A stretch of DNA of 64,000 nucleotides, taken from NCBI RefSeq assembly GCF_005849285.1, contig NZ_CP040517.1, forward strand, positions 2,982,501-3,046,500, in the 5' to 3' direction. Below the pieces are notes generated by a model. It did not search any database, had not been told where the DNA came from, and saw only the letters and a list, made by a program, of their open reading frames with translations. Position numbers and translations under genes: made by a program. This DNA is from Luteithermobacter gelatinilyticus. Lineage in GTDB: Bacteria > Pseudomonadota > Alphaproteobacteria > Sphingomonadales > Emcibacteraceae. Positions 10,867 to 56,860 of this stretch are shown in pieces. Position 1 is the stretch's first letter; the number at the start of each line of letters is the position of its first letter.

Positions 10867-11185
<319 letters not shown>

Positions 11186-11187
<2 letters not shown>

Positions 11188-11221
11188 AGTGAATTGAATC
11201 GATCTCATCACGATTCACTCT
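11186..11221. repeat. 36-bp palindromic REP-like element, copy A
   Basis: AGAGTGAAT (11186-11194) and ATTCACTCT (11213-11221) form a perfect 9-bp stem around an 18-base loop. The first two bases belong to the TAG stop codon of the preceding small protein. Same length and same arms as the copy at 21968-22003. Confidence 0.75.
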
Positions 11222-11346
11222 GGCCTTCACTCTGCCCTGCGTCTTTTTCCTTACCGGCGGGGCATGCTTGATCGTCTGACACCGCAAAGGGGCGATGGAG
11301 GCGAATTGGGGGCGCGGGCTAAAAACCGCTTCACTGCACCGAACCA

Positions 11347-11387
11347 TATTTCACATTTCGCGTATTTCACATTTCACGTATTTCACA
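11347..11387. repeat. 16-bp tandem repeat, 2.6 copies
   Basis: TATTTCACATTTCGCG is followed by a copy with one change (CACG at the end) and then a partial third unit. It lies in the 293-bp gap before the MarR gene (11188-11480), where otherwise only the palindrome at 11186-11221 is recognisable. Confidence 0.75.
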
Positions 11388-11480
11388 GGGCAGGATTGCT
11401 GACAATGTCTCACGCACCGGGTATAAAGAATCCACGCCGGATTATTTTTCAGATCTTTTTATGGGGATGGCCTGACCAAT

Positions 11481-11948
11481 ATGACCGACAAAGACATTAT
11501 CATTCCGCTGCCCGAAAACAACGAATCCGTTCTGGAGGGGTTCATCCCCTATGTCATGTATCGCATCACCAACCGCCTGAATATGGATCTGCAGAACGAC
11601 CTGCGCCCATTGAAAATCAATGTGTCGCGCTGGCGGGTTCTGGCGGCGCTGAATGCCCGGGACGGCCGGAGCATGGGCGAATTATGCCACTATACCATGA
11701 TGGAACAATCCTCCATCAGCCGGGTTGTGGACAAAATGGTGGAAGAAGGTCTTGTGGTGCGACGCGTTCAGGAACAGGACAACCGCTATATTCTGGTCTA
11801 CCTGACCCCAAAGGGGCGGGAAACATTCCATCTCGTTTATCCCAAAGCCTATACCCGCCAGGATGAGGCGCTGAAGGGGTTCTCAGAAGAGGAAAGACAG
11901 CAGCTTCTGGCCTATCTCAGGCGTATTGAGGAAAATATCAATATTTAG
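11481..11948 (+). CDS. MarR family transcriptional regulator
   Basis: Winged-helix DNA-binding regulator, 155 aa. N-terminal helix with IPYVMYRITNRLNMDLQNDL; the recognition region is WRVLAALNARDGRSMGELCHYTMMEQSSISRVVDKMVEEGLVVRRVQEQDNRYILVYLTPKGRE (about 52-115), which contains the typical beta-wing DNRY...LTPKG. A C-terminal dimerisation helix ends in EENINI. Its stop codon overlaps REP-like copy B. It converges with the dipeptidase gene. The target and ligand cannot be told; MarR proteins often control neighbouring genes. Confidence 0.9.
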   Translation: MTDKDIIIPLPENNESVLEGFIPYVMYRITNRLNMDLQNDLRPLKINVSRWRVLAALNARDGRSMGELCHYTMMEQSSISRVVDKMVEEGLVVRRVQEQDNRYILVYLTPKGRETFHLVYPKAYTRQDEALKGFSEEERQQLLAYLRRIEENINI

Positions 11949-11980
11949 AGTGAATTGTGAAGAGGTTGACCCATTCTGCC
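11947..11980. repeat. REP-like element, copy B (single arm)
   Basis: 34 bp beginning AGAGTGAATTGTGAAGAGG, matching the left end of the 281-bp element at 37254 at 33 of 34 positions. No return arm is present here. It fills the space between the MarR stop (TAG, 11946-11948) and the convergent dipeptidase stop (11981). Confidence 0.75.
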
Positions 11981-13306
11981 TTACTGGCCTTGTTCAATAC
12001 GTGCGGCATAATCCTCGGCCGCTTTCAGAACCCTGAGCAGGTTGCCGCCCCAGATTTTGGCGATGTCTTCGGCGCTGTAGCCACGCCGAACCAGCTCGGC
12101 CGTCACAGTGGCGGTCTCGGCCGCCGTTCGCCAGCCCTCAATGCCGCCACCGCCGTCAAAGTCCGAGGCAATACCCACATGATCAATACCGATCAGCTTG
12201 ACCACATGATCAATATGGTCCACCAGATCCCCGACCGTCGCCGGCGGCCAGGTCGGCGCCACCTCTTGCGCAAGCCGGCGCTGATAAGTCTCATATAAAG
12301 CCTGCGGCGCCCACCGCTCCATCAGAAATTCCGTAAATCCCAGTTCCCGGCGAATCCGGTCCACCGCCTGATGATAAGCTTGCGGTCTGTGTTTCAGGAA
12401 CGCGTCCACGGCGGTGATCTGAATGACACCGCCATTTTCCTTCAGGGCCAGAAGCTGCTCATCATCCATGTTGCGGGGATGATCCACCAGTGCGCGCACC
12501 CCCGAATGCGACGCAATCACCGGCACCCGGGAATGTCTTGTCGCCTGCAACATGGTTTTTTTGGAGACATGGGACACATCCACCAGCATACCTAGCCGGT
12601 TCATTTCCTCAACCACCTTGCGGCCAAAGGCGCTGAGCCCGCCATATTCTTCCGGCGCATCGCCAAATTTTTCCGCCGGCTGGGCGCTGTCACCAATATC
12701 GTTATGGCCGTTATGGGTCAGGGTCATATACCGCGCGCCAAGGTCATAATAACGTTGCACAAAGCCCAGATCCCGGCCGATCACGAAACCGTTCTCAATG
12801 CCGATCAGGGCCACTTTCCTGCCCGATGCCGCAATGCGGCGCACCTCGGCCGCCGTCCGTGCCAGACCGATCCGGTCCGGATATTGCGCCACCATGCGAT
12901 GAATGGCGTCAAACTTGTTCAGCGCTGCTTTTCTGGCATGGTCATAGCCCCAGTCATTGCGTGGTCCCTGCCCCACATAGACAATAAAAAATGCCGCATC
13001 GAGCCCGCCCTGATCCATTTTATCAAGATCCACCTGCTGACGTGGGCTGTGGGCGGCGTCCACCATGGGGGTGGCGAAATTGTCGGGAATGTCCACATGG
13101 CTGTCCAGGGTTAACACCTCCCGATGGAGTTCCATCACCTTTTGTCCGGTTTCAAGAGCCCATCCCGGCTCCCTTGCCCCGCTGCCAAGATACAGCCCCG
13201 CACTGATCCCCACACCCAAACCTGCCATAATCAGTCGTTTTACATATACGCTCATCATCTTTTCCACTGCTGATTTACCCGTTTGCGTTTGCGTGGACAC
13301 AGCCAT
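11981..13306 (-). CDS. membrane dipeptidase (renal dipeptidase family, M19)
   Basis: Zinc metallopeptidase expected to hydrolyse dipeptides, possibly including D-amino-acid dipeptides, in the periplasm. The protein is 441 aa from the chosen start. A hydrophobic anchor or uncleaved signal lies near residues 22-42 (LIMAGLGVGISAGLYLG). M19 features follow: DSHVDIPDNFATP (HxD metal ligands), IGIENGFVIG (bridging Glu), LTHNGHNDIGDSA, LVDVSHVSKKTM and PVIASHSGVRAL, and the late HVGIASDFDGGGGIEGW. The ATG at 13306 has GGGGAGG just upstream, which a start at 13327 lacks. Substrate is unknown. Confidence 0.92.
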   Translation of the reverse strand: MAVSTQTQTGKSAVEKMMSVYVKRLIMAGLGVGISAGLYLGSGAREPGWALETGQKVMELHREVLTLDSHVDIPDNFATPMVDAAHSPRQQVDLDKMDQGGLDAAFFIVYVGQGPRNDWGYDHARKAALNKFDAIHRMVAQYPDRIGLARTAAEVRRIAASGRKVALIGIENGFVIGRDLGFVQRYYDLGARYMTLTHNGHNDIGDSAQPAEKFGDAPEEYGGLSAFGRKVVEEMNRLGMLVDVSHVSKKTMLQATRHSRVPVIASHSGVRALVDHPRNMDDEQLLALKENGGVIQITAVDAFLKHRPQAYHQAVDRIRRELGFTEFLMERWAPQALYETYQRRLAQEVAPTWPPATVGDLVDHIDHVVKLIGIDHVGIASDFDGGGGIEGWRTAAETATVTAELVRRGYSAEDIAKIWGGNLLRVLKAAEDYAARIEQGQ

Positions 13307-13560
13307 AGCCTCCCCACCATACGTCAAGAGACCTAAGAATGCCCGACTGGCGAGTCATAGTCGATAGCTATTTTTCAAGGACCTACCCAAGGCGCCCCGA
13401 TGCCGGTGCCGCTTTAAGGGGACGGGCAAAACAGAAAGTGAAAAAAGGTGGTGACCCGGGTTTGGGGGATTGGCAGCAGGCTCGGGACAGACCCAGGTCA
13501 CCGGAGGGGGGAGGACAAAAACCGTAAAGTGAGATCAGAAACGATCGGACCGCAAAAGGA

Positions 13561-14037
13561 TCAGGCGTTTTTCAGGTGGTTATACCGGCCACCATAATAC
13601 AGTAGCGGCTCGCCTTCTCCCTGACGCAGCAGATCCACTTTCGCCAGATAGATATAATGGTCGCCGGCTTCGATAATATTCTGCACCGTGCCGCCGATAT
13701 GGCACAAACAGCCTTCAATAAAGGGAAACCCGTCCTCCCGGTCAAAGGTAATTTCCGGTTCAGGGCCCGGTGCGCCAGCAAAACTGTTGGAAATATCCGT
13801 CTGATGGTCGGAAAGGATATTGATCCCGATCCTCGCCCCGGTAAACAACAGTCCATGCAGACGGGTGCGTTTGTCCAAACAGACCAGCACCAGTGGCGGC
13901 GCCAGAGATACGGACGTAAAGGAATTGGCCGTCATTCCGTGGATTTCCCCCTCCACCTCGGTGGTGATCACCGTGACGCCGGTGGCGAACTTTCCGAAAG
14001 CGGCGCGTAATTCCTTGGGATCAAACTGTGTAGTCAT
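13561..14037 (-). CDS. flavin reductase family protein
   Basis: NAD(P)H:flavin oxidoreductase of the small split-barrel type that usually supplies reduced flavin to a separate monooxygenase. The 158-aa protein shows the family pattern LRAAFGKFATGVTVITTEVEGEIHGMTANSFTSVSLAPPLVLVCLDK near the N-terminus (flavin-binding S/T-rich loop) and a conserved late block GGTVQNIIEAGDHYIYLAKVD with GEPLLYYGGRY. It is 46 bases downstream of the oxidoreductase at 14083-15657. A styrene/indole monooxygenase-like flavoprotein lies at 20618-21838 without its own adjacent reductase, so this is a natural candidate partner. That pairing is inferred. Confidence 0.88.
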   Translation of the reverse strand: MTTQFDPKELRAAFGKFATGVTVITTEVEGEIHGMTANSFTSVSLAPPLVLVCLDKRTRLHGLLFTGARIGINILSDHQTDISNSFAGAPGPEPEITFDREDGFPFIEGCLCHIGGTVQNIIEAGDHYIYLAKVDLLRQGEGEPLLYYGGRYNHLKNA

Positions 14038-14082
14038 ATGCTTTCGCCCTTTTCCTGAAAATACGATCTGACAAATACTGGC

Positions 14083-15657
14083 TTACAAATATTGGGATAC
14101 AATATATCCCGATGTGCCGGCCAGCCCCGGCCCCGGATGGGTAGACGCCCCAATCTGATACAGATTGGCCACCGGTGTCCTGTGATTCGGGGTCGATTTC
14201 AAAGGTCGCCACATCATGAACTGATCAATGCTGCAAGCACCGGAATAGGGGTCTCCCTGCACCAGATTAATGTTCTGCTGTTCCAAATCCCGTGGGGAGA
14301 GCACCGTGCGGTGCAGGATCTTTTCTTTCAGATTCGGGACATGCACGGCAATCCGGTCGATAATACGATCGGCATAGGCTTCTTTCAGTTCGGCCGTCCA
14401 CTGGCCGCCCTCAGGCACCGCGATCCGGCCGGCCGCGTCGCCCTTTACCTTGTAGGGCAGTTCCTGCAATTGCAGCCAGAGGATCGCCTTACCCGCCGGA
14501 GCGCGCGAAGGATCCAGCGCCGTCGGCTGCCCCACGACCACCGTGGCCGTTTCCGGCAGCAGGCCGCGCCGGGCTTCATTTACCGCTTTTGATACCCCGT
14601 CCAGACCTGGCGTGAGGTGAATCATCGCCACATCGTTCAAGGCGCTGTCCTGCCATTCAGGCGGCGCATCCAGCGCCAGATGGATCTGCATGCAGCCAGC
14701 GCCATACTGATAATCGCGGCTTTGCTGCTGGATAGCGTCGGGCACGGCGGCTTCTTTAAGCAGGCTCCCGTAGAGCTGGGTCGGGGTTACATTGCCGATG
14801 ACCGCTTTGCGGGCCGAGTAAATGTCCCCGTCTGCGGTTTTGACCCCGACGGCCCGGCCGTCCCGGATCAGGACCTGGTCCACATGCCGGCGGGTCTGCA
14901 ATATCCCGCCATGTTTTTCAATCAGCCGGACAAAAGCCGACACCAGGTTTTTGCTGCCGCCTTTGACAATGGGCATGCTGGCCTGTTCCAGACTGAACGC
15001 AATCAGCTTGCCCATCAGACCCGACAGCGTATCTTCCGGCCCGAGCCCCGTGTGCAAAATCCAGGGGGCAAAACAGGCCTTCACTTCGTCGCTGTCAAAA
15101 TTTTTGTCCAGCCATTTCCGGCAGCTTTCCATGGACAGGCCGGCAAAATCCCAGAGGCTCTGAAAGCCCCGTTTCCATAAACTCCGCACCATAAGCTTCA
15201 GGGTTGGGAAGGTTCTGACATCGGCTCCCAGAAGACCGAAAATCAATTCGGCATTCTGTTCGATATCCGCCATGGCCCGCTCATAGGCCCGCACCTCCCC
15301 CTCCCCGAATCGTTGCAACGCATCAAGATTTTCTGCGCGGGAATTTCTCAGAATGAAATTGCGGCCGTCCGGCAATACCACACCGGTGGGTTTAGAGGTA
15401 CTGACATATTCCAGACCCAGCGCATGCAGTTCCTCTCCCAGTTCAGCATAGGCCGGCGAGGTGACAAACAGCGGATGCCACCCGGAAAAAACATCATGAT
15501 GAAAGCCCGGCAGCGTGATTTCATCCGTTTTGATACACCCGCCAACATAATCGTTCCGCTCCAGAATACAGACCTTATGTCCTTTGCGGGACAGAAGTGC
15601 TCCCGCCACAAGCGAGTTGATTCCGCTACCAATGATCACGACATCAAATTCTGACAT
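14083..15657 (-). CDS. FAD-dependent phytoene-desaturase-like oxidoreductase
   Basis: A 524-aa flavoprotein of the phytoene dehydrogenase/PYROXD2-like group. N-terminal dinucleotide-binding motif VVIIGSGINSLVAGALLSRKGHKVCILE (GxGxxxxxxG, residues about 5-32), followed by YVGGC. Mid-protein PIVKGGSKNLVSAFVRLIEKHGG resembles the substrate-domain entry of carotenoid desaturases. The C-terminus has NLYQIGASTHPGPGLAGTSGYI, the FAD-closing motif of the family. No other carotenoid genes are in the window, so a carotenoid role is not supported. It probably forms an operon with the flavin reductase. The substrate is unknown. Confidence 0.85.
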   Translation of the reverse strand: MSEFDVVIIGSGINSLVAGALLSRKGHKVCILERNDYVGGCIKTDEITLPGFHHDVFSGWHPLFVTSPAYAELGEELHALGLEYVSTSKPTGVVLPDGRNFILRNSRAENLDALQRFGEGEVRAYERAMADIEQNAELIFGLLGADVRTFPTLKLMVRSLWKRGFQSLWDFAGLSMESCRKWLDKNFDSDEVKACFAPWILHTGLGPEDTLSGLMGKLIAFSLEQASMPIVKGGSKNLVSAFVRLIEKHGGILQTRRHVDQVLIRDGRAVGVKTADGDIYSARKAVIGNVTPTQLYGSLLKEAAVPDAIQQQSRDYQYGAGCMQIHLALDAPPEWQDSALNDVAMIHLTPGLDGVSKAVNEARRGLLPETATVVVGQPTALDPSRAPAGKAILWLQLQELPYKVKGDAAGRIAVPEGGQWTAELKEAYADRIIDRIAVHVPNLKEKILHRTVLSPRDLEQQNINLVQGDPYSGACSIDQFMMWRPLKSTPNHRTPVANLYQIGASTHPGPGLAGTSGYIVSQYL

Positions 15658-16018
15658 GCGCCTGGGTCCCTGTATTTTATAGTGTCATTTATCGTTGTGT
15701 ATGTTTTATCTGTTTTCTGTTGTGCAAACCTGACACCCGCAGGCCGTGTCTGCACCACGCCCAAACGTTAGGAAAAACCGCCTCTTCCTGCTATGCACTT
15801 TCTGCACGGCCTGTGACATTTCTGCAAAAACCCGCCCCTTGGCCTCTCTCATCCGGGCCGCGTCTTTGACAGAGATCAATGAAGTTGTGATTTTTTTAAA
15901 ACGTCGCAGTTTTTTGATAGCGGCTGCAGGATATGCATAGCCTATTTATTTCAGATGTAAAATAGTTGTTGCCAGGATAAAAAAATCAAAACGCGAAAAA
16001 TATAAGTTGGAGGCAACA
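15658..16018. other. 361-bp divergent intergenic region
   Basis: Lies between the minus-strand oxidoreductase and the plus-strand TonB receptor, so it must hold two divergent promoters. It is GC-rich to about 15870 and AT-rich after that. A short palindromic stretch with GGCT and AGCC arms occurs at about 15921-15942. The sequence GGAGG at 16009-16013 is the ribosome binding site that fixes the receptor start at 16019. I see no gene or riboswitch here. Confidence 0.5.
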
Positions 16019-18418
16019 ATGCGAAGTGTGATTCCGCGTATTCAGAAAAGTATTCTCAAATCTTCCCTTCTGTATGGGACCATGCTGTCCCTGAGTGGCG
16101 GCTTTCTTATAAGCGTCCCGGCCGCCAGCGCAGATGAAGCCGCAGACAACAATGACCGTACAGCATGGTTGCTGGAAGAGATCACCGTCACCGCCCGTAA
16201 ACGCGAAGAGGGCCTGCAGTCCACGCCGATTGCCATTTCCGCCTTCACCGGCGAAGGGCTGGAATATCGCGGCGTCACCGACGTGGGCGAGATTGCGGCC
16301 TTCACCCCCAACCTGTCTTTCCAGAACAACCCGAGCTTCGGCGGGGCCAGCAATTCGGCCGCCATCTATATCCGCGGTGTGGGCCAGAAAGAATTCCTGC
16401 CAACCACGGAACCCGGCGTGGGGCTGTATGTGGACGGAGTGTATATTGCCCGATCCGTGGGTGGCATTCTGGATCTGGTGGATGTGGAGCGCATTGAGGT
16501 GCTCAAAGGCCCGCAGGGCACGCTGTTCGGTCGCAACACCATCGGGGGCGCCATTAGCATCACCACCAAAAAACCCCATGAAGAGTTTGCCGGCAAATTA
16601 TCCGCCACCTATGGCACGGACAACCGTTTTGATCTCAAAGCCTCCGTCAATCTGCCGCTGGCCGATAATTTCTACAGCAACTTTGCCGTCGCGTCGCTGA
16701 CCCAGGACGGATATGTGACACGGGACGACGGCATCGACCTGGGTGATGACGATACGCTTACCGGCCGCGCCAGTTTCCTGCTGACCCCGAGCGAGGATCT
16801 GGAAATCCAGCTTTCTGTGGAAGGCACTCGAGACCGGGAAAACGGTCCGGCGCTGACCCTGATCGGCATCAATTATGCGGGCCCCATTGACCCTGAAACA
16901 CCGCCCATGGCCACCATCCATAATGTGGGCGCCAATATCGCAGCGGGTGGTGCGCCCATGCCCTGCGCGCTGCCCGGGGCGACACTCAATCTGGCGGTGC
17001 CGGGCTGTTATGATGATCGTTATGTGTTTGACGGCGAGCAAAGAACCGCTGGCACAGCGCCGGCCTTTTCCCGCAGTGACTTCTGGGCGGCCAATCTGAA
17101 TATCACCTGGGACATCAATGAGACACTAACCTTTAAATCCATCACCGCCTACCGCAATCTGGACAGCACCTTTGCCCGCGACGGTGACCATTCCCCCCAC
17201 CGTATTTCCCAGTTCCTGGATTTTCTGGATCAGGAACAGTTCACCCAGGAATTCCAGCTTCTGGGCACCTCTCTGGAAGGCCGCCTGAACTGGATTCTGG
17301 GCGCCTATTATTTCACGGAGGATGGCAACAACGTCAACGAACTGGATTTCACCGTGTCCCGGTTCCGCAGCGGCGGACTCTATGACAATGAAAATATCGC
17401 CGCCTTTGCCCAAGCCACGTATGACGTCACAGACCAGTTCCACGTCACCGCCGGCTTGCGGTATACGGATGAAACCAAGAAATTCACCCCGGACCAGATC
17501 ATTCATCAGAACTATTTTGCCGGCACCGGTGATCCGCTCCTCGACGCACCTTTCCTGCAAGCGGGACAGCGGATTCTGCCCAATTTGGAAAAAGAGCTCA
17601 GCTTTGATGAACTGGATCCGTATCTGAACCTGTCCTATGACGTCAATGATGACCTGATGGTCTATGTGAGCTATTCCGAAGGCTTTAAATCCGGCGGCTT
17701 CTCCCAGCGGGTATTCCCGCCGATCGTGCCGCCCTTCACCGCCCCCCCGGGCACCCCGGATATCGAGCTGATTCCCACCTTCGATCCAGAATTCGCCACC
17801 GTGTATGAGCTGGGCTTCAAATATGCCGGCCTCGACAACCGCCTGCGGCTCAATGGCGCGGTCTTCTATACCGATTATACGGACATGCAGGTGCAGGTCT
17901 TCACCAGCGTCGCCCCGATCACTAAAAATGCCGGGGCCGCCACCATCAAAGGCTTTGAACTGGAAACCCAGTTTATTCCGGCTGAGGGCTGGTTTGTCGA
18001 GGCGGGTCTGGGATATCTAGACGCGGGTTATGACGAGATTGATTTCGCCACCACCTTTGTGGACAAGAACAATCGGCTTGACCGGGTATCCGACTGGACT
18101 TTGAGCGCTGCCGTCTCCAAGGAAATTTATCTGGATGGTAACGGGTCGTTGACCCCGCGCGTTGACTGGTCCTATCGGTCCGAATTCGATAATGACGCCT
18201 TCAACACCCCTGAAATCCGTCAGGAAGGATATCATCTTGTGAACGCCAATATCACCTGGCGCAATGAAATGGAAACCATTGCCTTGGTGGGGGGAGTGAA
18301 GAACCTGAGCAACGAAAAATACCTGATCACCGGCATTATCGGCGACGCCTTCCAGTCCTTTGAAGGTCTGTTCGACCGGGGTCGTGAATGGTATGTGACA
18401 GCCCGGTTCTCCTTCTAA
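16019..18418 (+). CDS. TonB-dependent receptor
   Basis: Outer-membrane active transporter, 799 aa. Signal peptide about residues 1-38 (basic start, SLLYGTMLSLSGGFLI core, then AASA). A short linker leads to the TonB-box-like EEITVTARKREEG. The plug domain (about 55-175) shows IAISAFTGEGLEYRGV, YIRGVGQKEF, GVGLYVDGVYIARS and VERIEVLKGPQGTLFGRNTIGGAI. The beta-barrel fills the rest and ends in the Phe-terminated strand WYVTARFSF. Start chosen at ATG 16019, 5 bases after GGAGG. Followed by a hairpin terminator and then an AraC regulator. Receptors of this type take up siderophores, vitamins or aromatic/lignin-type compounds; the ligand cannot be read, though the surrounding genes suggest an aromatic compound. 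Confidence 0.95.
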   Translation: MRSVIPRIQKSILKSSLLYGTMLSLSGGFLISVPAASADEAADNNDRTAWLLEEITVTARKREEGLQSTPIAISAFTGEGLEYRGVTDVGEIAAFTPNLSFQNNPSFGGASNSAAIYIRGVGQKEFLPTTEPGVGLYVDGVYIARSVGGILDLVDVERIEVLKGPQGTLFGRNTIGGAISITTKKPHEEFAGKLSATYGTDNRFDLKASVNLPLADNFYSNFAVASLTQDGYVTRDDGIDLGDDDTLTGRASFLLTPSEDLEIQLSVEGTRDRENGPALTLIGINYAGPIDPETPPMATIHNVGANIAAGGAPMPCALPGATLNLAVPGCYDDRYVFDGEQRTAGTAPAFSRSDFWAANLNITWDINETLTFKSITAYRNLDSTFARDGDHSPHRISQFLDFLDQEQFTQEFQLLGTSLEGRLNWILGAYYFTEDGNNVNELDFTVSRFRSGGLYDNENIAAFAQATYDVTDQFHVTAGLRYTDETKKFTPDQIIHQNYFAGTGDPLLDAPFLQAGQRILPNLEKELSFDELDPYLNLSYDVNDDLMVYVSYSEGFKSGGFSQRVFPPIVPPFTAPPGTPDIELIPTFDPEFATVYELGFKYAGLDNRLRLNGAVFYTDYTDMQVQVFTSVAPITKNAGAATIKGFELETQFIPAEGWFVEAGLGYLDAGYDEIDFATTFVDKNNRLDRVSDWTLSAAVSKEIYLDGNGSLTPRVDWSYRSEFDNDAFNTPEIRQEGYHLVNANITWRNEMETIALVGGVKNLSNEKYLITGIIGDAFQSFEGLFDRGREWYVTARFSF

Positions 18419-50484: not shown

Positions 50485-50689
50485 TCAGGGCTGCAAGTCG
50501 CGCAGTTTACGCCAGCGCTGATATTGCGCGGCCTTTTTCGGGGCCGGGTCCTCAATCCCGCGCAGCCAGAAATTGAACCAATCCAGGTTCCGCCGATACA
50601 CCAGATATTTGTGGGTAGGTTGCCATTTGACATGATATTCATCGGGATAGATGATCATCTCCACCGGCGTCCGGGTGTTGCGGCATAGC
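50485..50689 (-). pseudogene. 3' remnant of an S9-family peptidase (lasso-peptide isopeptidase-like)
   Basis: About 67 C-terminal residues remain of a prolyl-oligopeptidase-fold enzyme. The frame contains VEMIIYPDEYHVKWQPTHKY, whose His in DEYH corresponds to the catalytic-triad His of S9 peptidases, followed by RRNLDWFNFWLRG, a typical S9 C-terminal end. The HVKWQP context resembles isopeptidases that open lasso peptides, but this is from memory of the family. The coding sequence stops being homologous exactly at 50689/50690, where the first CRISPR repeat begins. The nucleophile Ser and Asp regions are absent everywhere else in the window, so the gene is dead. Confidence 0.65.
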
Positions 50690-52243
50690 GTCATAGCTTC
50701 CCTTTTCACACCGATAGGCTATGATCTTCTGGGCATGTACCCCATGTATCTGTTGGTCATAGCTTCCCTTTTCACACCGATAGGCTATGATGCATATGTC
50801 ACGTTTAAAACAGGGTCTGTCGTCATAGCTTCCCTTTTCACACCGATAGGCTATGATCAGATGTTTGGAAACGGGCCGCATGACCCGGTCATAGCTTCCC
50901 TTTTCACACCGATAGGCTATGATAGCAGGATCATCAACCCCGTCATGATTAAGGTCATAGCTTCCCTTTTCACACCGATAGGCTATGATGCACAAATCTA
51001 ACATCCGCACTATCGAGCAGTCATAGCTTCCCTTTTCACACCGATAGGCTATGATAATTGTCCTTCGTTCTGTTGAGCGCTGAGGGTCATAGCTTCCCTT
51101 TTCACACCGATAGGCTATGATCAACTGGCCTGTCGCCTACTCGTAGGGGACGTCATAGCTTCCCTTTTCACACCGATAGGCTATGATCATGTTGAGGTTG
51201 AGCGGATGTTGCAGCGGTCATAGCTTCCCTTTTCACACCGATAGGCTATGATGATATCCCCTGTGGACGATTGGCATCATTGGTCATAGCTTCCCTTTTC
51301 ACACCGATAGGCTATGATCTTGAATTTTGCGCCATGCTCAATAATCATGTCATAGCTTCCCTTTTCACACCGATAGGCTATGATCCTAATTATTATCTAT
51401 CTTATACCTATCTTGTCATAGCTTCCCTTTTCACACCGATAGGCTATGATATAATCGTGAACCGGGCCATGTGGGTATCGGTCATAGCTTCCCTTTTCAC
51501 ACCGATAGGCTATGATATCAGCCGCGAGACGCTTAATCCCCTCTGCGTCATAGCTTCCCTTTTCACACCGATAGGCTATGATCGATCGTAAACCTGGAAG
51601 GTGAGGCTAAGAGTCATAGCTTCCCTTTTCACACCGATAGGCTATGATAATCCCCTGTATCGGGGATTTCTCGGGCATGTCATAGCTTCCCTTTTCACAC
51701 CGATAGGCTATGATAAGTACGCCTCGCAGTCGATAGAGAAACCGGTCATAGCTTCCCTTTTCACACCGATAGGCTATGATCGATTAGTCCTGCGATAAGC
51801 CATTTCATATGTCATAGCTTCCCTTTTCACACCGATAGGCTATGATTTCGTCGCCATGTGCCACCTCCAGCTCTTTGTCATAGCTTCCCTTTTCACACCG
51901 ATAGGCTATGATCAGCAAAGGGCACACCCTGTACTATCATAAGTCATAGCTTCCCTTTTCACACCGATAGGCTATGATTATTCCGGAGGTCATGAGGGTG
52001 AGCGGACTGTCATAGCTTCCCTTTTCACACCGATAGGCTATGATAGTTTACCCGCTAAGAAATCGGCGCAGATTGTCATAGCTTCCCTTTTCACACCGAT
52101 AGGCTATGATAAACAAGTTCGTCGAGTTCGGACAGGGGTTCGTCATAGCTTCCCTTTTCACACCGATAGGCTATGATAATTTACCCGCCAGAAAATCGGC
52201 ACAAATAGTCATAGCTTCCCTTTTCACACCGATAGGCTATGAT
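50690..52243 (+). CRISPR. type II-C CRISPR array, 24 repeats and 23 spacers
   Basis: The repeat is 36 bp, begins GTCATAGCTTCCC and ends GATAGGCTATGAT, and all 24 copies read as identical, including both ends. Spacers are 30 bp except spacer 8 (29 bp, 51188-51216) and spacer 22 (31 bp, 52111-52141). The plus strand is the crRNA sense: the repeat start resembles the GTTGTAGC start of Neisseria II-C repeats and is complementary to the tracrRNA at 56761-56860. The repeat ends in TATGAT, a good -10 hexamer, so each repeat may carry its own promoter as described for Neisseria. No degenerate terminal repeat is seen. The left end abuts a truncated peptidase gene; the right end faces cas2. Confidence 0.98.
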
Positions 52244-52276: not shown

Positions 52277-52322
52277 AACAGCGAACAGCTCAGAGTAAAA
52301 GGAGCTGTTCGCTGTTGTTTTT
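52277..52322. terminator. bidirectional terminator between CRISPR array and cas2
   Basis: A perfect 15-bp inverted repeat (52277-52291 with 52302-52316, core CAGCGAACAGCTC) around a 10-base loop. On the plus side it is followed by GTTTTT; on the minus side by TTTTTCC. It overlaps the last codons of cas2 and can stop both crRNA transcription and the cas operon. Confidence 0.9.
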
Positions 52323-52631
52323 CGGGTGGGTCTCGTCAAATTCCGGGGCATTTGAAAGCAAAATCCTGATATTTTTATACTGCCGGTCGGTGATCTGCAT
52401 GGCGCGGATGCTGCCTTTGGGCGGCAATTCCAGCTCCAGCCGTTTCATATGTTTTTCAACACGTTCCAAACCATTGCAAATTCTAGCATAAATTGAATAT
52501 TGAAGCATCATATATCCGTCCCGAATCAGAAACTTTCTGAACCGTGTCGCATGGCGCCGTTCCTTTTTTGTAGTGGTCGGCAAGTCAAACATAACGAAAA
52601 TCCACATATATTTATCTCCCGTCCGACTCAT
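52290..52631 (-). CDS. cas2: CRISPR-associated endonuclease Cas2
   Basis: Small ferredoxin-fold protein of the spacer-integration complex, forming the dimer between two Cas1 dimers. The 113-aa protein begins MSRTGDKYMWIFVMFDLPTTTKKERRHATRFRKFLIRDGYMMLQYSIYARIC, with the conserved Asp at the end of beta-1 (FVMFDLP) and the Type II-style SIYAR segment. It follows cas1 by 6 bases and is last in the cas9-cas1-cas2 operon. The 3' end of the gene also encodes one arm of the bidirectional terminator. Confidence 0.96.
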   Translation of the reverse strand: MSRTGDKYMWIFVMFDLPTTTKKERRHATRFRKFLIRDGYMMLQYSIYARICNGLERVEKHMKRLELELPPKGSIRAMQITDRQYKNIRILLSNAPEFDETHPKNNSEQLLLL

Positions 52632-52637
52632 GAGGAT

Positions 52638-53531
52638 CTACACCGCAAACAAAGGCAGATGGAGCAACCGGCTGTCTTTTTCCCGCAGCGCCCGGACCAG
52701 ACTGCTGGCGACCCGATCCGCCGCATTGGTCAGGGTCTGCACCTCCCCGTCGATCAACACCTGTCGGGTGGGCAAGGCGGCAAGGGTCTGACGATCTTGC
52801 CGACTGAGCTCACGCCCCGCGGGCGGCATATCCCCCACAAGCCGGATCACCTCCCGATCCACAAAGGGCCGGAACGGCTCCAACAGATCATCGGCCAGAT
52901 TATAGGCATTCAGGTTGCTGTCATGATGCAGGCCAAAACAGGGCAGCAGGCCATAACTTACCAGAGACCGCGCCACTGCGGCCCGCACCACCATATATCC
53001 ATAATTCAGCACCGCATTGGCAAAATCCGCCGCTCCGCGGACAAATCCCGGCGGCATAAGCCGCTTCCAATAATCCCGCGCCGCCTGCGCCTCGCGATTT
53101 TTGGTATCCCCACTGTCGACCCGCCGCGCCATCTGCCGCAACGCCGTCCCCGTGTCCTGTCCCGTAAGCATAAGACAATCGGCCTGATTACCGATCTTGG
53201 CCTGCACAATCCGTTGCCAGCAACGCTTGCGGAACGGCCGGCTCCAGTCCCGCTGCAAGGCGGCAATTTCACTCAACCGGGAATGAGGAAGGAACGGTAA
53301 GAGCAGCCCGTTGGGCATATGACGGCCGTCACAGGTGATCACCGCCACATTGTGGTCCTGAAGCGCCGCCAGCAAAGACGTGGTCACCGTGGCCTGCGCC
53401 GTTTCCAGGATCAGCACCGTGATATCCTCGACAGGAATGGTGACGACGCCGTCGTTCCGCTCGCAACGAAGCTGGGCATTTTTCAACGAAAGAGAACAGC
53501 GGTTCTGGATCAACACCGTCCGCCATGACAT
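52638..53531 (-). CDS. cas1: CRISPR-associated endonuclease/integrase Cas1
   Basis: Integrase that inserts new spacers at the array. The protein is 297 aa from MSWRTVLIQ, the usual start of type II Cas1; the in-frame ATG at 53543 would add MGVV. N-terminal beta domain with LSLKNAQLRCERNDGVVTIPVEDITVLILET. The catalytic helical domain has the metal-binding Glu in TKNREAQAARDYW, the His in GLHHDSNLNAYNLADDLLEPFRPFVDREV and the Asp/Glu in NLADDLLEPFR. GGGGG lies 5 bases before the chosen ATG. It lies 76 bases after cas9 in the same direction. Confidence 0.96.
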   Translation of the reverse strand: MSWRTVLIQNRCSLSLKNAQLRCERNDGVVTIPVEDITVLILETAQATVTTSLLAALQDHNVAVITCDGRHMPNGLLLPFLPHSRLSEIAALQRDWSRPFRKRCWQRIVQAKIGNQADCLMLTGQDTGTALRQMARRVDSGDTKNREAQAARDYWKRLMPPGFVRGAADFANAVLNYGYMVVRAAVARSLVSYGLLPCFGLHHDSNLNAYNLADDLLEPFRPFVDREVIRLVGDMPPAGRELSRQDRQTLAALPTRQVLIDGEVQTLTNAADRVASSLVRALREKDSRLLHLPLFAV

Positions 53532-53607
53532 AACAACCCCCATACTTTCTCTTATGATTGAGGGTGTTATGATACATGCAACCGGTTAAGGCGGAGTTAA
53601 AGGCGTT

Positions 53608-56600
53608 CTATGAAGTTTTCCAACGCTGACCAAATACGTCCACATAATATTTCTCAAACGACTTCATACGTTGTACGCCAGGTCTTAATTCTTTTCCGGA
53701 ATTATCATGTATGCGCAGTCTAATTTGCCCTGTAGCACGGTCCGTGTTAATATAATATCCCTCAATCCGTTCCTCTTTGTGATTTTCCAGAACCACATAG
53801 TCGTTCTTAAAAAGATCGAATTTGAACCGATAACTCTCATCAACTTGCCGCCAGTCCTCTTCGATTTTACCTTGCACAATCAGCCGGTCAGGCTCCCGAC
53901 CCGTCATGACATCTTTCACATACACCGGGCAAAGATAAAATTTACCGTCTTTTTCATAAACCTTCACATAGGCCATATCACCGTTGCTGGCGATGCCTTC
54001 ACGCACCTTAAAGCCGGACTTATCGGAAGTCACAAGCCGCACGGCGCGGATCAGCGGCCCCTGTCCCCCACCCTTTTTCGGCATATAAACCGGTTCAGCA
54101 AAAGCTTTTTTGGCATCCCCACCATGGGCGTCCAACCGATCTTTCAAAAGATAATAAAGGGTGGCATTGCGGCCATGGGCCACCCCGTTCTCATCCACCT
54201 CCGCATCGACAATGTTTTTCAGATCTGCGAGTTTCAAATCCCCCAAGCGGACGCGTTTAACAACATAAGGTCGCCCTTGCGCGTCATACCGCAGGCTTTT
54301 GATGGTATCTTCATGAATGGCACCGGTTACTTTGCGATCGGGGGCCCGGCTGACAAAGATCTTGTCCACCACCTCCAACGCGTCTTCACGAAACGTTGGC
54401 CAGGGTTTGGGCGGATAAAAACCTGGATCATCCGGGTGATTGGGCCGGTGGCGTTTGTCCCACAGGGTCATCTGCTGCACATGGCCTTGAGTCGCAGCGG
54501 CAACAATAATGGCATCCAGGCCGTGATGGCGGTCATTTTCGTCCCGGTCCTTCAGACCCAGCCCCCAGGCATGGCGCAGGTGAGACGTAAGCGCCCCGTT
54601 GCGAGTTTGCACAAACAAGGGATGCCCGCTGTCATCCGTGCGGTCATAGCGCGGCGCCAAATGGCGTTCCATATGCGATACCAGAAGCCTTGCCACATAG
54701 CTATTATCCCGCAAGTGACGGCTTTTCCATTCATTTTGCTTTTCCAGATCAAAATCCCGCATCAACAACCTTCGGGCTTTTTGGTCATTGCCCAGCCGCT
54801 TGGCGAAATCCTCAAGCCCGGCCAAATCGCGCCCGATCCGGCTAAAATATTCCACCGGGGTTTCGTTGCCCTTATGCTGGTTTTCATCAGCGTAACATAA
54901 CACCTTGTTAAACCAGCTGTTATCAAAAGAACGGCTATAGGGCAAAATATGATCTACCTGTGTTGCCATAGGATCCTTCAGGGTTTCAGGCGGGATATAT
55001 TCCCCACTATAGGCGCAGATACCGTTTTGTTCTTTCCAGAGTTTGTATTTGGCGAAATCCTCTCCACTGGGTTCACGACCGAAGATTTCTTCGGCATGTT
55101 GGCGCAACTCTTCGTTATAGGCGCGCCTTTTCTGAATTTCCCGTTCCCGGTCCTTGCGGTCCTTGAAATTCCTACCCAATTCCCGCGACAGTTCGACATG
55201 AAACCGGTCGGGCATGCCATGTTCTCGGATCAGCGCGTTAATCACTTTGCGGGTCTGGCTCAGGGCCCTGAGCACCACAGGGTTGCGCACTTCCGTGCCA
55301 TATTCGGCAAGAAAAGGCGGCAACTGGTCCTTGTCGCCAAAATAGCGCGGGCTGTGATCGTATCCTGCCGCCTCACAGGCTTCGGAATAGACCAGCCCCT
55401 GTTCCAGATAAGGCAGAATGTTATAGATCGCCTTGAAAGACAGCGCTGCCGTGCCTGCCAGATTGAGCGGCATTACGGCCTGAAGCTGTTCCTCGGTGAG
55501 CGGCAGGTCCCGCGCCAAGTCCCGGATATCCCGGATATCCTCGTAAAAGGCCAGAATTTCCGTCAACCTATCGAGATGAGCCGGCTCAGCAGCAAAATTC
55601 TTCCAATCCCCTTCGGACATATACGGGGCCAGGGCCTTTTTGATTTTATGATAGCCTTCCATCTTGATCAGGGTGGCCTTTTCGGCCGTTTTGACCACAC
55701 TTGCCCAGTCCTGGTCTTCCTCCTTGGTTTTGCGGTAGCTGGCCAGATTGAATGTATACTCCGTCGGCAGGCCCAGTTCCTTCCGGGCCCGGGCAAAAGT
55801 GACGTTGGCTTGGCGGTGCGCCAAACTGATCAGCGCCCGTTTCTGATCCAGTGTCAGCGGCGTTCCCCGGCCGCTCTTGAGCAGGCGCAAGCTGTTCAGC
55901 CGTTCCCAGCAGGTTCTCAGCTCATTACTGTAGGCCCGCACCGGCGCCCGTTTTTCACCCGGCTCAAATTCACACACCCCCACCAAGTCAATGCTGGATT
56001 GAAGTGGGCGTTGACGAAAAGCTGTTTCCTTGAAGGCGTCCCGGAGCGCCTCAGTGGCCAACGGCTGACCAAAAGCCTGCTGCCGGGCAATCAGAATATC
56101 CACTTCCTGACGCAGCAGATTGCGGATCACGGTATGCTCATAGCTATCTGGTCTGTTGCGCTTTTTTTCAAGCCCCGCCAAATAGGCGCCAATGGTTTCC
56201 GCCCCTGCCGCCTTCATGTTTTCCTGCAGCTTGGCCGCGGCGCTCAGCATCACGCCCCCTTCGCTTTTTTCATCCACGTCGGATTTACGGATGGATTGAA
56301 AACCCCGGCGCTGATTGATATGCATTAAGACTTGGGCCAGTTCCCGCGAAGACAGTTTACGCTCAAGGCCCAGTTTGCGTAATTGCCAGACATCAGGCTC
56401 GGTGATTTTTCCCGTTTTTTGACCTTTCACCGGCAGAGCCACATCCGCTTCGGAAAAGCCATGATCAAGCAACAACTTGCGCACGGCGATACGGCGGCGG
56501 CGGCGGCGGTCAAGCCGGCGGCGCGCCAGCCGTTTTTCCCGGCGCGGCAAAGCAAGGGACGAGCCATCTTTGCCATGTTCCGCCGCATCGAAAATCCGCG

Positions 56601-56691
56601 CACCGCTGGCAAGAATTTCGTTTTTTCTCAAATCAATATAAGCATAGCCGACAGAAGCAATGCCGGTATCCACGCCGATGATTTTTGTCAT
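53608..56691 (-). CDS. cas9: type II-C CRISPR-associated endonuclease Cas9
   Basis: RNA-guided double-strand DNA endonuclease, about 1027 aa, compact like other II-C proteins. RuvC-I: IIGVDTGIASVGYAYID with the catalytic Asp. Arg-rich bridge helix at about 55-72 (RREKRLARRRLDRRRRRR). RuvC-II: FHVELSRELGRNFKDRK with Glu, about residue 502. HNH: TQVDHILPYSRSFDNSWFNKVLCYADENQHKGN with catalytic His near 583. RuvC-III: HHGLDAIIVAAAT near 725. A C-terminal PAM-interacting region of about 250 residues follows. All nuclease residues look intact. The start at 56691 (MTKIIG) is preferred because AGGGGGG lies 6 bases upstream; 56697 would add MH. There is no cas4 or csn2, consistent with II-C. Confidence 0.97.
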   Translation of the reverse strand: MTKIIGVDTGIASVGYAYIDLRKNEILASGARIFDAAEHGKDGSSLALPRREKRLARRRLDRRRRRRIAVRKLLLDHGFSEADVALPVKGQKTGKITEPDVWQLRKLGLERKLSSRELAQVLMHINQRRGFQSIRKSDVDEKSEGGVMLSAAAKLQENMKAAGAETIGAYLAGLEKKRNRPDSYEHTVIRNLLRQEVDILIARQQAFGQPLATEALRDAFKETAFRQRPLQSSIDLVGVCEFEPGEKRAPVRAYSNELRTCWERLNSLRLLKSGRGTPLTLDQKRALISLAHRQANVTFARARKELGLPTEYTFNLASYRKTKEEDQDWASVVKTAEKATLIKMEGYHKIKKALAPYMSEGDWKNFAAEPAHLDRLTEILAFYEDIRDIRDLARDLPLTEEQLQAVMPLNLAGTAALSFKAIYNILPYLEQGLVYSEACEAAGYDHSPRYFGDKDQLPPFLAEYGTEVRNPVVLRALSQTRKVINALIREHGMPDRFHVELSRELGRNFKDRKDREREIQKRRAYNEELRQHAEEIFGREPSGEDFAKYKLWKEQNGICAYSGEYIPPETLKDPMATQVDHILPYSRSFDNSWFNKVLCYADENQHKGNETPVEYFSRIGRDLAGLEDFAKRLGNDQKARRLLMRDFDLEKQNEWKSRHLRDNSYVARLLVSHMERHLAPRYDRTDDSGHPLFVQTRNGALTSHLRHAWGLGLKDRDENDRHHGLDAIIVAAATQGHVQQMTLWDKRHRPNHPDDPGFYPPKPWPTFREDALEVVDKIFVSRAPDRKVTGAIHEDTIKSLRYDAQGRPYVVKRVRLGDLKLADLKNIVDAEVDENGVAHGRNATLYYLLKDRLDAHGGDAKKAFAEPVYMPKKGGGQGPLIRAVRLVTSDKSGFKVREGIASNGDMAYVKVYEKDGKFYLCPVYVKDVMTGREPDRLIVQGKIEEDWRQVDESYRFKFDLFKNDYVVLENHKEERIEGYYINTDRATGQIRLRIHDNSGKELRPGVQRMKSFEKYYVDVFGQRWKTS

Positions 56692-56727
56692 ATGCATCCC
56701 CCCTGGAAAGCGTTTTTTTGCTTGATC

Positions 56728-56760: not shown

Positions 56761-56860
56761 ACTATCGGTGTGAAAAGCGTTGTTGTGATAAGGATTTTAA
56801 ATCCGTGGAGCTCTATCCCCGCGTCGCAAGGCGTCGGGGATATCTTCTTAGGGCCCTCTG
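56761..56860 (+). ncRNA. predicted tracrRNA
   Basis: CTATCGGTGTGAAAAG (56762-56777) is the exact complement of repeat positions 13-28. After an internal loop, GTTGTGAT (about 56782-56789) can pair with the repeat start GTCATAGC using Watson-Crick and G-U pairs. AAGG follows, then a small hairpin GGATT/AATCC (about 56791-56803). The 3' hairpin starts ATCCCC (about 56815) and closes with GGGGAT (to about 56841), with a GCAA tetraloop and one bulged T, followed by the T-rich ATCTTCTTA. This layout equals Neisseria-type II-C tracrRNA. It is divergent from cas9, 64 bases upstream of its start. Confidence 0.88.

Follow-up and report, generated by a model that had tools for sequence, protein, structure and literature searches.

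A pair of related CRISPR spacers that probably samples one ParB-like coding site in two diverging phages

In a CRISPR array of Luteithermobacter gelatinilyticus (RefSeq assembly GCF_005849285.1, contig NZ_CP040517.1), two spacers look like versions of one another, which raises the question of whether they arose within the array or were taken from related invaders and, if the latter, from which gene and on which of its strands. We addressed this question computationally, starting from the 64,000-nucleotide stretch of DNA that holds the array (the window, to which coordinates refer unless another locus is named). The features concerned are:

50690-52243, + strand: CRISPR array of 24 identical 36-nt repeats and 23 spacers (29-31 nt)
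52045-52074, + strand: spacer 21; its reverse complement reads (x)-ICADFLAGK-(Leu)
52111-52141, + strand: spacer 22 (31 nt), sitting between spacers 21 and 23 and unrelated to both
52178-52207, + strand: spacer 23, last in the array on its cas2 side; reverse complement (x)-ICADFLAGK-(Leu or Phe)
52290-52631, - strand: cas2 (PF09827; PADLOC Cas2_II)
52638-53543, - strand: cas1 (PF01867; PADLOC Cas1_II)
53608-56697, - strand: cas9, 1029 aa, with HNH_4 and RuvC_III
56762-56849, + strand: candidate tracrRNA, an anti-repeat (about 56762-56789) followed by hairpins

The system is type II-C CRISPR-Cas: cas9, cas1 and cas2 were recovered by Pfam and PADLOC, the HNH/RuvC Cas9 is compact, its best 11 PDB matches being Cas9s of 1055-1154 aa, and the candidate tracrRNA carries an anti-repeat. 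Neither csn2 nor cas4 was found among the scanned neighbour genes of cas9-cas1-cas2, which comprised glutamate dehydrogenase, an S9 peptidase fragment (below cut-off), Rieske, YCII, glycerol-3-phosphate dehydrogenase and TsaD. The candidate tracrRNA adjoins cas9, has no Rfam match, and is complementary through its anti-repeat to the 5' part of the repeat. In the fold of a joined repeat:tracrRNA model (-63.1 kcal/mol, z -9.86) the repeat:anti-repeat duplex is strong, so that the guides (crRNAs) are read from the + strand. At the array end distal to cas2, the C-terminal fragment of an S9 peptidase (50488-50685, - strand; PF00326, below cut-off) abuts the array, as if the gene had been cut off by the array or by a deletion.

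The preliminary description of this DNA had reported 23 matches over 30 positions between spacers 21 and 23, and this count was reproduced, with the two in register and without offset; they differ at spacer positions 2, 12, 14, 15, 24, 27 and 30. When all 23 spacers were compared with one another on both strands at offsets up to 12, scoring matches minus mismatches, the pair reached 16 and the runner-up 7, making it the sole related pair in the window array. Across 70 spacers of four arrays, two pairs stand out, one from a relative that is identical at 29/30 positions (score 28) and the pair 21/23, followed by a pair at 18/26 (score 10); this comparison omits a further array (L141, from genome G021), for which the expression used found no repeat. 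That two unrelated spacers came to resemble each other by chance is scarcely credible, given a score of 16 in register against a next-best 7 over all pairs and offsets, and given the synonymous pattern of their differences described below.

The pair had been read in frame 1 of the guide strand as SLPAKKSAQI and NLPARKSAQI, a translation that is accurate, and from there as diverged alleles of one coding protospacer in related phages, with a suggested likeness to the ATPase motif of GpA-type large terminases. This sense frame, [SN]LPA[KR]KSAQI on the crRNA strand, is open in both spacers, and five of the seven differences fall at third positions, at the cost of two amino-acid changes. Read in frame 1 of the reverse strand, both spacers encode ICADFLAGK with no amino-acid difference at all: the differences at 12, 14 and 15 become Phe TTC/TTT and Leu TTA/CTG, the base preceding the Ile codon is A in one spacer and T in the other (permitting Leu and excluding Met), and the codon after Lys starts CT or TT. 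To weigh the two frames we simulated drift by seven random substitutions (six transitions, one transversion), running 200,000 trials on each of the two spacers. At most two changes were retained in some stop-free frame in 24% and 29% of the trials in the two sets, whereas a stop-free frame with no changes arose in 0.11% and 0.09%. The sense reading is thus unremarkable and the antisense reading remarkable. Database evidence points the same way, as LPA[KR]KSAQI searched as degenerate DNA returned two unrelated IMG/VR loci, one (L001) lying antisense to a phrog_1770 Holliday-junction resolvase and the other on the strand opposite a Gln/Ala-rich open frame of 228 aa, neither of them a terminase. 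We therefore consider a terminase motif read in the sense frame extremely unlikely. The allele part of the original proposal stands and its sense frame does not, all full codons being synonymous in antisense; a protospacer in another frame was what the description had itself named as telling against it, and with the antisense frame favoured its claim on the frame fails, as far as can be told without the source phages.

Duplication of a spacer within the array, followed by drift, would also produce a related pair, and exact duplicates do exist in this genome, in a second array whose spacers 10, 12 and 13 are identical. A spacer in an array is not under codon constraint, and the all-synonymous pattern has a frequency of about 0.1% under drift; moreover, the unrelated spacer 22 sits between 21 and 23, and all 24 of 24 repeats are identical, yet the spacers differ at 7/30 positions. 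In-array duplication is accordingly a very unlikely origin. Judged on the codon pattern, spacers 21 and 23 very probably represent one coding site in two related phages, held constant at the protein level and coding on the strand opposite the crRNA.

The second array belongs to a further type II system of the same genome (L149, G000:C1:1060001-1080000, at 11099-17892 of that locus), with 36 repeats enclosing 35 spacers, the genes cas1 and cas2, and a 1044-aa Cas9 that is 30% identical to the window Cas9 over 916 aligned columns; this system, too, is probably II-C. Its identical spacers 10, 12 and 13 (L149 11729, 11861 and 11927) look as if they came from in-array duplication, in contrast to the diverged 21 and 23. 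Spacer 6 of the window (51056-51085) and spacer 14 of the second array (L149 11993-12021) match at 22/24 overlapping positions, which suggests that a single site in related invaders was sampled by both CRISPR systems of the genome. In the relative with the 29/30 pair (L144; genome G069, contig C45), which has a similar repeat, the spacers concerned are 3 and 8. Both pairs are synonymous in an antisense frame, which says little because they hold only two differences and one.

We then asked which proteins carry the antisense peptide. A codon-degenerate search of IMG/VR for ICADFLAG, the motif core present in the antisense peptide of both spacers, returned 15 loci, compared with one for the reversed peptide and two for the sense peptide, the pattern and controls being of like degeneracy (34.4-35.0 bits). 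E[LM] directly precedes the motif in 11/15 loci (LE[LM] in ten, VEL in L109), and the commonest family residue directly before Ile is Leu, which fits the A/T end base of the spacers. With the motif masked, eight of the 15 proteins fell into one blastp cluster (E<1e-3), L117 and L119 formed a second, and L103, L108, L110, L112 and L120 remained single; the main cluster amounts to about six distinct proteins, as L107 is a fragment with only 22 unmasked residues, identical to part of L115, and L114 and L116 are 94% identical. Ten of the 15 proteins, including all of the main cluster except L107 and L116, were scanned against Pfam and PHROGs. L109, L111, L114, L115 and L118 match PF02195 ParB_N (L109 and L114 below the Pfam cut-off) as well as ParB-like PHROGs, and L113 matches ParB-like PHROGs, so that all 6/6 scanned members of the main cluster match ParB-like models. 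The target gene is thus probably ParB-like, to go by this family, and read on the strand opposite to that first proposed.

The motif lies in a C-terminal tail, LE[LM]ICADFLAG, that no Pfam match covers in the ten proteins scanned. L112, L117 and L119 match phrog_17202 (unknown function), a family that also covers the tail of the ParB-like L115. At least two families of phage proteins that otherwise differ, ParB-like and phrog_17202, carry the tail, which may be a shared module not yet described. Of 40 candidate stretches obtained with a profile of the tail, 19 were related loci, many of them on the same contigs and overlapping with the first 15; the candidate pattern also fixed Glu/Cys, and the later site expression required E, C or A at that place. 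For a wider set of sites, L107-L120 and L122-L140 were scanned (33 loci) and 31 kept, L108 and L120 being dropped because the residues before their motif misfit the expression and L103 being left out; 18 distinct sites remained after collapsing. When 11 tail proteins, whose identity to the first ranges from 21 to 59%, were aligned, the longest invariant run lay in the tail (Glu, then ICADF), an invariance that is partly by construction because the search was baited with the motif. One member was modelled with AlphaFold (mean pLDDT 76.8, pTM 0.53; block means of 78-95 across the last two helices); the model has the motif in its last helix and matches structures of ParB and Noc, with a best E of 2e-6. 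A ribbon-helix-helix fold was considered for the tail and rejected: the two helices are modelled, but no strand of at least three residues stands just before them. The residue after ICADFLAG varies among family members and is never the Lys of the spacers, the sole IMG/VR locus with ICADFLAGK being an unrelated 68-aa frame (L103). The family site nearest to spacer 21 is identical to it at 23/30 positions, a score within reach of synonymous coding by itself.

Searches of IMG/VR with patterns covering both spacers found no exact protospacer for either, and no convincing match appeared in INPHARED, PLSDB, GTDB representatives, or 196 and 296 genomes of the order. We thus infer the source gene from the motif. 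The best single DNA match is that of spacer 23 to the P1-like ddrA, at 23/24 positions (E 0.01 among phages in INPHARED, 0.04 among plasmids in PLSDB), found in Cronobacter phage JK004 and four Salmonella plasmids and in the same antisense frame in JK004. Together with the resolvase of L001 (QIWADFLAGS), which is likewise matched in that frame, it could mean that the spacers sample the same antisense coding site in related phages, in a different gene with ADFLAG-like residues. Both candidates depart from the motif within ICADFLAG, the resolvase by W for C and ddrA (LVADFLADKF) by V for C and D for G. The resolvase was rejected on this difference at Cys and on a number of hits close to chance, about three matches being expected for the pattern that found L001 (a rough estimate from an assumed IMG/VR size). 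The ddrA gene was rejected as it encodes VADFLADKF and the match ends after 24 nt; its relatives in INPHARED comprise 22 records of phages named for enterobacteria or P1-like. ADFLAG-like peptides also occur in unrelated cellular genes. We regard such another gene as an unlikely target, and hold with a probability of roughly 0.75 that the array sampled the same site of one gene twice, from related phages that had silently diverged, the site being a C-terminal ICADFLAGK motif of a mostly ParB-like family.

Several other matches were set aside. A Klebsiella phage matches spacer 21 at 24/28 positions by BLAST, with the spacer strand coding there and in another frame. Seven pattern loci in GTDB representatives lie in cellular genes: named from reading the sequences and not by family search, four fall in D-2-hydroxyacid-dehydrogenase-like genes, one in a sulfatase-like gene and one in a membrane protein, while at the seventh another frame is the longest open one. 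Allowing up to two mismatches, 12/196 genomes of the order gave matches, one of them the source genome itself; the other 11 loci have no common target beyond one gene common to genomes G018 and G004. The tail profile (A3) found nothing in 296 genomes of the order, and the ICADFLAG pattern nothing in 385 genomes of the class, in which the tail profile gave two weak matches. BLAST of the whole array returned nothing convincing (best E 2 among phages, 5 among plasmids), and a merged pattern for spacers 1 and 18 had no match in IMG/VR. Open-licence PMC papers retrieved with the letters ICADFL were unrelated, judged by title.

If a ParB-like tail is the target, its codons would bear on the PAM. Aligned to Nme1Cas9, the PAM-interacting domain of the window Cas9 has Asp986 at His1024, Thr989 at Thr1027, Gln991 at Asn1029 and a Gln at Gln981. 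Passages of one study dealing with Nme1Cas9 orthologs attribute a strong preference for C at PAM +5 to those with Asp at the His1024 position (PMC9433092), and the window Cas9 is predicted from this residue to share it. On the guide strand, the 3' flank of the family sites is the complement of the codons before Ile and reads mostly A-N-Y-T-C-N-A. C stands at +5 in 12/15 ICADFLAG loci (exceptions L103, L112 and L120) and in 17/18 distinct sites of the wider set, because the conserved Glu codon, two codons before Ile, fixes it. The flanks, taken from the presumed target family, and the Cas9 Asp thus agree on C at +5. The same passages associate a glutamine with adenine on the target strand at PAM position 8 (PMC9433092); the family sites carry G, A or C at +8 of the guide-sense strand, despite the Gln of the window Cas9 at the Nme1 Q981 position.

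We propose that the type II-C system acquired both spacers at a single site within one gene, each from a different one of two related phages. Opposite the crRNA strand this site would encode ICADFLAGK. Phage proteins, most often ParB-like ones, conserve this motif close to or at their C-terminus, usually as LE[LM]ICADFLAG, and its Glu codon would fix a C five positions past the 3' end of the protospacer; as this is the predicted preference of the Cas9, related phages would keep a usable PAM. Three of the seven differences between the spacers (24, 27 and 30) fall in the last seven positions, on the PAM side. Cas9 tolerates mismatches least in the PAM-proximal part of the target, so that each guide is likely poor against the other phage. 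Silent divergence may in this way have weakened cutting by the older guide, after which a second spacer was taken from the phage variant, phage escape being the presumed driver. Passages of a further study report that II-C arrays gain spacers at the 3' end (PMC12638026), here the cas2 side, and the flank past the last repeat on that side is alike, by eye, in two relatives. On this basis spacers 23 and 21 would both be recent, with 23 the newest.

A broader form of this proposal, which we put forward as possible and somewhat doubtful, makes the site a re-sampling hotspot: the conserved Glu codon would fix the PAM, wobble in PAM-adjacent codons would evade old guides and the host would re-acquire at the same PAM. 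The array would then preserve a single silent step in an arms race, and phage lineages shared between both Cas9 systems of the genome would be sampled by them in parallel. More generally, even with no protospacer match, two diverged spacers can show which motif of unseen phages is targeted, on which strand it is coded and in which frame. From the pair 21/23 follow a target that can be tested, the tail at the C-terminus of phage ParB-like proteins, and a PAM that can be tested, C at +5.

How does this locus compare with known systems? With type II-C systems whose effector is Nme1Cas9-like, as treated in the passages cited (PMC9433092), it has in common cas9-cas1-cas2 with an array, a compact Cas9, a tracrRNA candidate beside cas9 and Asp at the His1024 position; it differs in that the PAM of the window Cas9 is a prediction. 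The likely targets share the N-terminal ParB domain of phage ParB-like partition proteins (PF02195; phrog_723, phrog_620) and add to it a short C-terminal tail ending in LE[LM]ICADFLAG. That two spacers can be taken up at a single site in related invaders is already known. In excerpts of work on type I-C systems of Legionella pneumophila, two spacer pairs in one strain target overlapping regions of the element LME-1, the older spacer mismatching the current target in PAM or seed and the newer one matching it, for which the authors suggest escape followed by primed acquisition (PMC5071653). By comparison with those excerpts, the Legionella pairs belong to type I-C and have their element in hand, whereas spacers 21 and 23 belong to type II-C, lie in exact register and have diverged only synonymously. 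The pair most likely reflects repeated acquisition from diverging phages, and is an unusually legible case of it.
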